A DNA stretch of 64,000 nt, from NCBI RefSeq assembly GCF_964275005.1, contig NC_092698.1, positions 31,799,162 through 31,863,161 on the forward strand, in the 5' to 3' direction. The position numbers and the translations under genes were made by a program. Source of the stretch: Diadema setosum. Lineage: Eukaryota; Echinodermata; Echinoidea; Diadematoida; Diadematidae. The notes under the pieces are model-generated. The model did not search any database. It had not been told where the DNA came from and was given only the letters and a program-made list of their open reading frames with translations. This document shows, piece by piece, positions 47,622 through 50,600 of this stretch (positions are counted from its first letter, which is position 1; each line of letters starts with the position of its first letter).

Positions 47622-50600
47622 ATGGCCCTTATCCCGAGATTGAGAGTGACAGTTGTCTGTATCTTGCTGACAGTTTTCCGCGGAGGGATATCTCAGACGA
47701 CGGTCGAAATACCTGGTCTAGGAAGGGTACTCGGGAAAGCTGTTCCCTTCCAAGAGGACAAGTTCATTGGAGTCGATACACAAATAGATGCTTTCTTGGT
47801 ACGTAATAATCAGACATAATTGTCATGTGAGTAGATAAAGAAATATTGCCTGGATTGAATTTGATTTGGATTGACTTTTTTACACTTCTCAGTACTTGCT
47901 ATAGATGGAGTGATCGTACCATGATCAAGTTTTATCCTCAAGCACAATAGCAATTGAGAGATATTTTGAAGATCTACAAAAATGTATCATAGTCTTGTTA
48001 ATAAGCTTTTAAAGTCTTTACTTTATCATGATTATACCGGTCGATTTGATGATGTAATGCAGACCCGAGTAGGCCGTCGAACGTCATTTACAATGAGTCA
48101 AAGATTCGATCTGGCTCAGCACTCAAATTTTATGTTGTTTCTGGCATTTACGTGTTTTTGTTTATTCGACTTTTTTTTCTGGGTTAGGCATGGTAAAATA
48201 TATCTTTTCCATCAATAGCAAAGGGAAGAAAACAACATTGGTTAAATACAATGCAGTTGCAAAAAATAATGATACTAGGTATACACGAACGTAGACATGG
48301 GTTTTCTTTACCCCGATTGTATCTGAACGAAGGTTGAAAGCAAGAGAATATTAATCATAGGGGTGAAGGTTGAGGTGTGATTTTTCTTCAGTTTTTCTCC
48401 CTCCACAAATGAAATTCGTTCTACAAATGAAATTTGTATAGAACGAAGGTTCTCCACCAAGAAAGGTGATAAAGGATACGTAAGGTTCCCTGGTCAATGA
48501 AGTTTAAAAAACAAACAAAAAAATATTTCATACTCGGCGTTCATTTTGTTTCCAGGGAATTCCTTTTGCCCAGAATCCACCTATCCGCTTCGCAGAGGCA
48601 CAACCAGTGGACCCCTGGGGAGGAGTATGGAACGCCACATACTTCCGGCCAGCTTGTGCCCAGTTGAGTAGCGAAGTGGACGAGTACAGCGAAGACTGCC
48701 TCTATCTCAATATTTTTGTCAACAATCCCGCTGTAAGTTTAGCTTGATAATGATATTACCAAAAGCATGCTGGATAGTTCTTACTTGGTTTACGCCGAGA
48801 AATACCTTTGTATAAGCTAAAAACAAAATCATTTTATTTTCTGGCTGGTCTATCTGATGTGCAGCACAATTTTTCATCCTTTATGGCAACAAAGTTCTGA
48901 AGGACAAGATGAAAATACATGTATACTCCTTGATTCTAGAGAATTAAAGAAACGCAGATATTTACAATAGCAACAACGATAGTCCTTATCTTTCATGAAA
49001 AGTGCATATTCCTTCCACTTGTAACTGACAACAGTTGACGCTATATTATTACTCCATGTGTTAATCTACACGTATATTTGGGTTTCATTAAAGTCTTCTT
49101 TTCTCCCTTTTCCCAATTTTGTTGCATAAAAGCCGAGCGGAAATGCTGCTGTGATGGTTTGGATTCACGGCGGCGGGTTCTCTATTGGGACCGGTGCTTC
49201 GTACGGCCGTTATGGCGCCCCGCTGGTTGCTGTCGGTGAGGACGTTATTGTGGTGACTATCAACTACCGGCTCATGGTGTGGAGTGTTTTCAACACAGGT
49301 GTGATTTTCCTAAGTTTGTATCTTTACAATCCTACTGTAGAAACAATATTGGAGTCTTTTGCAAATACAGTATATTTCACTATTTTAACATTTCATTAGG
49401 TCACCGTTTAATGTCCTCAGGACTGGTCAGCGAATAATTGGGATGTATGTATCATATGATTTTTATATTAAACTTATTGGCCCGAATTCACGAAGGTGGT
49501 ACAAATGAAACCATGGTTTAAACCATGGACAAAAACCATGGAATGCCAAGTGTTGCATGCGATATTTCGCTACGAAATCAGTCATTTCGTCGATGAAATG
49601 ATTATTTTGTAAAGAAATGACAACATTTTGTAACTAAATGAACATTTCGTCCACGAAATGATAATTTCGTTAACGAAACAGTCATTTTGTCGACGAAATG
49701 ACCAATTTCGTAACGAAATATTCTGTTTGACACTTGGCGCTCCATGTTTTTTGTCCATGGTTTAGACCATGGTTTTGTTTGTACCACCTTCGTGAATTCG
49801 GGCCATTGAGTCTAAGAGAGTTTCTGAAACGAAGATTTTACAACAGTAATAACAATTGTTTTTATCTTTTATGAAAAGTAACATATTCATTCCATCTATT
49901 ACAGACATAACATAATGATTTGAGCAGCAGAAATTGAAGTCTCTGCATGTCCAGACTTTAGAATTGATGCCTGATACTTGATGTGTCGATCTAGTTATTA
50001 TGTATCTAATTGCTTATTCATTATGGCTTAATCGAAAATCAGTCTAATATCACTCATTTTGATTTTACTCTTTCACTCCTTATAGGAGACGAGGTTGCTA
50101 CTGGCAACTACGGTTTGCTTGATCAACAGTTAGCTTTACGATGGGTTCAAACCAACATAGCAGGTAAGTTCCGTCACGTGTGCTAGTCAGGTTCTCGATT
50201 ATCATTATTCTCATTTCATAATTGTTTTGCTACTTATGCTGGATTAGAATAGAACGTGCTGTACCGTCTTATCGCTTTAGCTTTCCCTTGGTGTAATATA
50301 TCGACAGCTGTGTATTTCGGCAGTACGAAAAATATATCACGGGACCTCCTAGTTCACGAGTTGTCGGAAGGTTTCAGTTTTCCCCCACTGTTATCTTTGC
50401 GTACAGCCTTTGGAGGTGACCCTAACAAGGTTACCATCTTCGGGGAGAGCGCGGGGGCGGCCAGCGTAGATTTCCACCTCCTATCACAAGGCAGTCGGGA
50501 TCTCTTCAGCCAGGCAATCATGCAGGTATAAGCTGGTATATTATGGTAGCTCTATGTAGTTCTCTGAGTGACTTGATATGAGAGCTGAAGTGCGCCACCA

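Follow-up and report, generated by a model that had tools for sequence, protein, structure and literature searches.

The window, by which we mean the whole stretch of 64,000 nucleotides analysed here (C14:31799162-31863161 of the Diadema setosum genome), encodes an esterase that carries the tail of the acetylcholinesterase (AChE) T form and is devoid of the choline-binding Trp. The tail that assembles and anchors AChE is usually associated with choline hydrolysis, and the locus raises the question of which esters such a protein might hydrolyze and whether its choline site was lost or never acquired. Here the tail and the choline site are separate in a gene family, which makes the order of their origin testable, as well as the role of a T-peptide oligomer without acetylcholine. 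No report of a T-tailed esterase family without a choline site was found in the open-access literature titles and abstracts searched. The question also matters for annotation, as best hit and tail together would label these genes acetylcholinesterases.

Structure of the esterase gene and its predicted product

The gene occupies positions 47622-54703 (+) of the window and its spliced model consists of 10 exons, with all introns of the GT-AG type and 600 codons without a stop; the introns were placed by homology, not by cDNA. The features of the model are as follows.

47622..47798, +, exon 1: start codon, probable signal peptide (by eye) and start of the mature protein
48556..48732, +, exon 2: contains the entire Cys loop and coincides exactly with the segment singled out in the preliminary description
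48655..48699, +, Cys loop C93-C107: 13 residues between the cysteines, without Trp
49133..49298, +, exon 3: oxyanion segment, with a motif that departs from YRxGxxGF
50086..50163, +, exon 4
50407..50525, +, exon 5: nucleophile elbow GESAG, Ser214 codon at 50448-50450
50967..51134, +, exon 6: Cys pair C269/C280, 3' end within the acyl region
51721..52148, +, exon 7: short acyl region, Glu335 codon at 51838-51840, C411
53277..53468, +, exon 8: His457 codon at 53332-53334
54150..54334, +, exon 9: C549, the partner position of the third disulfide
54591..54703, +, exon 10: T-peptide (WAT) exon, first Trp codon at 54617-54619, 26 nt past the acceptor, terminal Cys600 and stop

The Pfam profile COesterase (PF00135) matches the window protein with 430.6 bits against a cut-off of 27, and the closest solved structures by sequence are the cholinesterases 6emi and 6euc (E about 1e-96). 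The protein terminates at Cys600 and has no membrane segment; judged by its sequence, it is probably secreted.

Several repeats lie in or near the gene. Intron 3 contains, at 49468-49815, inverted arms of 146 nt that are 83% complementary and separated by a spacer of 56 nt, with the look of a foldback or MITE-type element, and by eye a part of intron 6 (about 51190-51420) resembles a short interspersed repeat. Immediately downstream of the gene, 55069-57653 (+) is similar by eye to a non-LTR retrotransposon; its start resembles an endonuclease and other parts a reverse transcriptase, with two overlapping frames. Elsewhere in the window, an open frame at 13400-13762 (+) resembles a CUB-domain exon, and tandem arrays are present at 8622-9973 (a 274-bp unit, five copies), 30224-30705 (a 240-bp unit, two copies, 99% matches) and 42072-42236 (the 5-bp unit AATTG, 33 copies).

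The Cys loop is short and lacks the choline-binding Trp

In the preliminary description, 13 residues had been counted between C93 and C107 against about 26 in AChE, and the choline-binding Trp had been reported as absent. Numbering and count were confirmed and no residue of the loop aligns with Trp84, while aligned chain rows of Torpedo AChE, human BChE, fly AChE and 4qww all have 26 residues in the same loop. Although the value of 26 is correct, vertebrate AChE is too narrow a yardstick: aligned chain rows have 15 residues in human bile-salt-activated lipase (CEL) and 28 in human carboxylesterase 1, and the loop comprises 11-22 residues in 40 of the 43 bacterial relatives having the first Cys. 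The bacterial sample started from 80 loci, which gave 61 ORFs with the elbow motif and 56 with the second-Cys motif; among these 56, a Cys was present at most 60 residues upstream in 43 and absent in 13.

A missed micro-exon in intron 2, which had been considered as a way to restore the loop and its Trp, could not do so because the Cys loop lies wholly within exon 2. When the loop regions of Torpedo AChE and BChE were used in tblastn searches of 47000-55000, only exon 2 was matched and no second copy was found, ruling out that the gene holds another loop exon, overlooked or alternative; with short loop peptides by themselves as queries, no match was better than E 0.3. More generally, a gene-model error, an assembly gap or a pseudogene is scarcely credible as an explanation. 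The homology-based placement of the introns leaves room for it, above all at the exon 6/7 join in the acyl region, where a small exon might have been missed, but the consensus splice sites, the uninterrupted reading frame and the containment of the loop in a single exon speak against it, as does the recurrence of the loop length in relatives.

The catalytic triad is retained, most of the acetylcholinesterase gorge is not

The triad residues Ser214, Glu335 and His457 and the oxyanion glycines are present in the aligned window protein, as are three Cys pairs at cholinesterase positions (93/107, 269/280 and 411/549), in agreement with the earlier statement that catalytic triad and disulfides are intact. 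The third pair, C411/C549, is missing from the compared rows of bile-salt-activated lipase, carboxylesterase 1 and neuroligin 1. The acyl region had been described as short, and a gap of 6 residues is indeed seen with respect to Torpedo; this is not diagnostic alone, as the two AChE-like genes of the same genome also have an acyl region that is shorter than in Torpedo (by eye) and yet retain the F-x-F pattern.

Using the list of 14 AChE gorge aromatics given in section 5 of PMC3045457, 3 are retained in the window protein, 8 in BChE, 9 in fly AChE and 4 in bile-salt-activated lipase. The two alignments used agree on W114 and W233 as retained, whereas the third retained residue is Tyr130 in one and W279 in the other, in which Tyr130 is shifted by one position. 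Equivalents of Trp84, Phe330, Phe331, Phe290 and Tyr442 are missing, and Phe288 corresponds to Tyr or a gap.

The motif YRxGxxGF reads YRLMVWSVF in exon 3, where the two usually conserved glycines are replaced by Met and Ser. The motif region was found in 59 of 61 bacterial relatives; all 59 have the second Gly and 54 have the first. In 7 of 9 aligned members of the urchin family described below, the second Gly is Ala or Ser; the relatives with such a replacement are L149, L153, L155, L161, L163 and L164.

The T-peptide tail is shared with acetylcholinesterases

The last exon encodes a tail of the form W-x3-F-x2-W-x6-W-x3-F-x2-Y-x5-C, with aromatic and Cys spacing identical to that of the Torpedo T peptide. 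The WAT tail noted previously is thus kept, although the profile AChE_tetra (PF08674) scores only 10.9 bits on the window protein, below its cut-off of 25. According to a passage in PMC5943944, tetramers form when the T peptide attaches to the proline-rich domain of PRiMA, and part of PMC3045457 presents ColQ as a counterpart to PRiMA in T-peptide binding. A profile search of the D. setosum genome for a PRiMA partner gave 84 weak matches, none of them over the cut-off, and these weak matches are not usable.

In 22 of the 23 T exons caught by a script, including the T exons of both AChEs of the same genome (L165 and L166), the distance from the splice acceptor to the first Trp codon is exactly 26 nt. 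In total 24 T exons were examined for this position; the script missed L101, which reads alike by eye, and the lone exception, L095, is also without the tail Cys. Because they have the same acceptor position, the T exons of the family and those of the AChEs are most simply taken as homologous and not as look-alikes. An independent evolution of the C-terminal exons and the catalytic part of cholinesterases has been proposed in section 16 of PMC3045457.

The genome also encodes two canonical acetylcholinesterases

Two loci, L081 (C22:22.17 Mb) and L082 (C22:6.17 Mb), display 49% identity to the Torpedo query. Both possess a 26-residue Cys loop with E-M-W, the F-x-F acyl pattern and, past the catalytic Glu, an FF pair. 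Of the 14 gorge aromatics, L081 retains 9 and L082 retains 8, and T exons are located on the same strand about 5.1 kb (L081) and about 1.7 kb (L082) downstream. With two canonical AChEs in the genome, acetylcholine hydrolysis is very likely served by genes of its own, separate from the short-loop family, and the tail is common to both classes.

That the window gene might nevertheless encode a working acetylcholinesterase, which binds choline through a different aromatic residue, seems highly improbable. The equivalents of W114, W233 and possibly W279 are retained, and the acyl pocket is often built differently in invertebrate AChEs according to a part of PMC3045457, but the absence of Trp84 is accompanied by that of Phe330, Phe331, Phe290 and Tyr442, with Phe288 altered or gapped, in a genome that already has two enzymes of the canonical type.

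A family of T-tailed, short-loop esterases

The genome searched comprises 912.7 Mb in 102 contigs. Taking tail matches up to E 10, with counts to be read as lower bounds, at least 26 T-peptide exons were found with the window tail as query, at least 28 with the Torpedo tail and at least 30 distinct places with both together; 10 of the 26 window-tail matches have E >0.3 and have to be judged by their spacing, strand and neighbourhood. Two of the T exons belong to the canonical AChEs, leaving at least 28 others. Thirteen T exons form one tandem array (C11:10.74-11.00 Mb), 6 are located at C14:38.58-38.67 Mb, and the remaining ones lie elsewhere on C14, C11, C20 and C22. When 20 of the 26 window-query tails were cut out and read, all 20 showed the loose aromatic pattern and 19 had a Cys close to their end.

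For 18 of the 26 window-query tails a loop exon was read as well, the other 8 being without one; tail and loop were paired within a contiguous stretch in 8 genes, by strand and contig order in 9 and by the spliced model in the window gene. In all 18 T-tailed genes, window gene included, the Cys loop has 13-16 residues, and in none of them is a Trp found at the choline position; one loop (C14:22.4 Mb) has a Trp adjoining the first Cys, not at the Trp84 position. An isolated loss of the Trp loop in a single gene is ruled out by this family, in which loop and tail are shared. Of 40 loop stretches taken from the genome, 39 were readable (L114 was missed), 38 of them with 13-23 residues and one (L109) with 32.

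Catalytic Ser, acid (Glu, or Asp in one case) and His are retained in 9 of 9 aligned family members. The residue preceding the catalytic Ser varies in the relatives (E, Q, G or V). Six of the 8 relatives have Ala or Ser instead of the third oxyanion Gly, and bile-salt-activated lipase has Ala there too. Both cysteines of the third pair occur in the window protein and in 5 of 8 relatives, and one relative is without the tail Cys; activity and assembly may differ between family members. Pairwise comparison of 17 loop exons (136 pairs, not independent of each other) yielded 30 pairs with dS between 0.05 and 1.5, and in all 30 dN/dS was below 1, with a median of 0.23. The retained triad together with loop-exon dN/dS below 1 speaks for family proteins that are under selection and probably catalytic.

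These data also bear on the adhesion or signalling role that had been suggested as an alternative for this protein. Neuroligins, which have the same fold, serve adhesion as described in a passage of PMC5943944, and some family members have odd residues beside the Ser, so that a non-enzymatic protein like neuroligin can be envisaged. We consider such a protein improbable, and a purely adhesive version is not favoured, as all 9 aligned members have the nucleophile, along with acid and His, where neuroligin 1 has Gly in place of Ser; purifying selection on the loop exon and the end of the window protein at Cys600, with no membrane segment, argue in the same direction.

Gain or loss of the Trp loop

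In a tree of 26 rows, nine T-tailed short-loop rows form one group (100/99) and six Trp-loop enzymes another (100/100), with the window family outside the latter. The rows of eight relatives in this alignment were projected on window columns; their insertions are lost and their loop lengths in it are not true lengths. The best tree, built on the catalytic domain, has the family as sister to the AChEs with weak support (67/47), groupings with bile-salt lipase and neuroligin were not rejected (p-AU 0.33 for family, CEL and neuroligin 1, and 0.43), and a tree that was broader and more quickly built, 56 bacterial rows included, placed the window protein as sister to the Trp-loop enzymes with an SH-aLRT of 81. 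The T exon and the third Cys pair, common to the family and the AChEs, favour the sister relation. Nesting of the family in deuterostome AChEs without the fly enzyme was rejected (-26.5 log units, p-AU 0.007). An origin as a recent duplicate of the genome's own AChEs was also rejected, as the pairing costs 39.3 log units (p-AU 0.0005). The phylogenetic check that had been called for, carried out here with the genome's own AChEs and few animal groups, gave a monophyletic family and rejected its nesting, whereas the sister position remained weak. A shortening from acetylcholinesterase, as implied previously, is unsupported by these tests, given the p-AU for nesting and the frequency of short loops in the wider family.

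Because outgroups such as the bacterial relatives and bile-salt-activated lipase are mostly short-looped, the long Trp loop is more simply seen as a gain on the acetylcholinesterase stem than as a loss in the window family; cautions on this reading are the loop of 28 residues in carboxylesterase 1, long branches that are possibly misleading and the few animal groups compared. On this basis we tentatively envisage that the T peptide predates choline recognition: a broad esterase assembled through the T peptide might have existed before the Trp loop, and the urchin might have kept and multiplied a second branch (at least 28 T exons) as assembled non-choline esterases.

It is also conceivable, if rather doubtful, that the ancestor was a true acetylcholinesterase and that duplication was followed by loss of the Trp loop and of the aromatic gorge. 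Such a secondary loss would be in line with the AChE-like T exon, the position of its intron and the third Cys pair of the window protein; long branches could displace a fast family from its true clade, and the loop of human carboxylesterase 1 demonstrates that outgroup loop length varies. Opposed to it are both rejected placements, within the deuterostome AChEs and beside the genome's own AChEs, the grouping of the six Trp-loop AChEs to the exclusion of the family, and the short loops of bile-salt-activated lipase and of nearly all bacterial relatives with the first Cys (40 of 43).

Predicted function and comparison with known systems

Taken together, the product of the window gene is probably a secreted serine esterase that belongs to the COesterase family, has a cholinesterase T peptide, assembles through this peptide and acts on non-choline esters. 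The mature protein would be secreted by way of its probable signal peptide, subunits would be linked through the C-terminal Cys600 and the WAT helix into dimers or tetramers, and a proline-rich partner would perhaps anchor the oligomers. Because the choline site is missing and loop and gorge are similar to those of bile-salt-activated lipase, we infer that a short-loop gorge of this kind would hydrolyze uncharged or bulky esters and not acetylcholine. The non-choline substrate proposed in the preliminary description fits well with the absence of the Trp in 18 of 18 genes, the triad in 9 of 9 and the two separate AChEs, although the shortening from an AChE that it implied was not supported. A digestive, protective or surface role would be compatible with the tandem expansion.

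With the T forms of AChE and BChE the gene product shares the COesterase family, the triad, the three Cys pairs and a T-peptide exon, which in the case of the genome's own AChEs has the same acceptor position and a similar aromatic pattern. It differs from them by the lack of the Trp84 loop (13 versus 26 residues), by the 3 of 14 gorge aromatics and by the short acyl region without Phe290, and its family falls outside the AChE clade. Bile-salt-activated lipase resembles it in the short loop (15 versus 13 residues), the few gorge aromatics (4 of 14) and the triad, whereas the acid of this lipase is Asp, its compared PDB chain has neither T peptide nor third Cys pair and identity is 33%. Liver carboxylesterase 1 belongs to the same family and is 36% identical to the window protein, but has a loop of 28 residues and no third Cys pair, and no T peptide in the compared chain. 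Neuroligin 1, also of this family and 34% identical, has Gly for the catalytic Ser, whereas Ser214 is retained in the window protein. AChE-like proteins of land-snail trail mucus, as far as described in the relevant part of PMC12094768, are comparable as invertebrate proteins outside the synapse. Whole-animal esterase assays with generic esters might pick up members of the urchin family.

Other esterase loci of the genome

A further T exon, L167 (C14:37816900-37817300), adjoins a cluster with 23-residue loops that are without the Trp signature, and this tail and cluster possibly represent a third class of T-tailed esterase. At C16:15.19-15.48 Mb and 29.39-29.41 Mb, C11:6.50 Mb and C16:9.12 Mb, COesterase exons were found, many with R/GIPYAEPP...EDCLYLDVFVPE and with loops of 17-19 residues, which apparently constitute a distinct expanded subfamily in the same genome.
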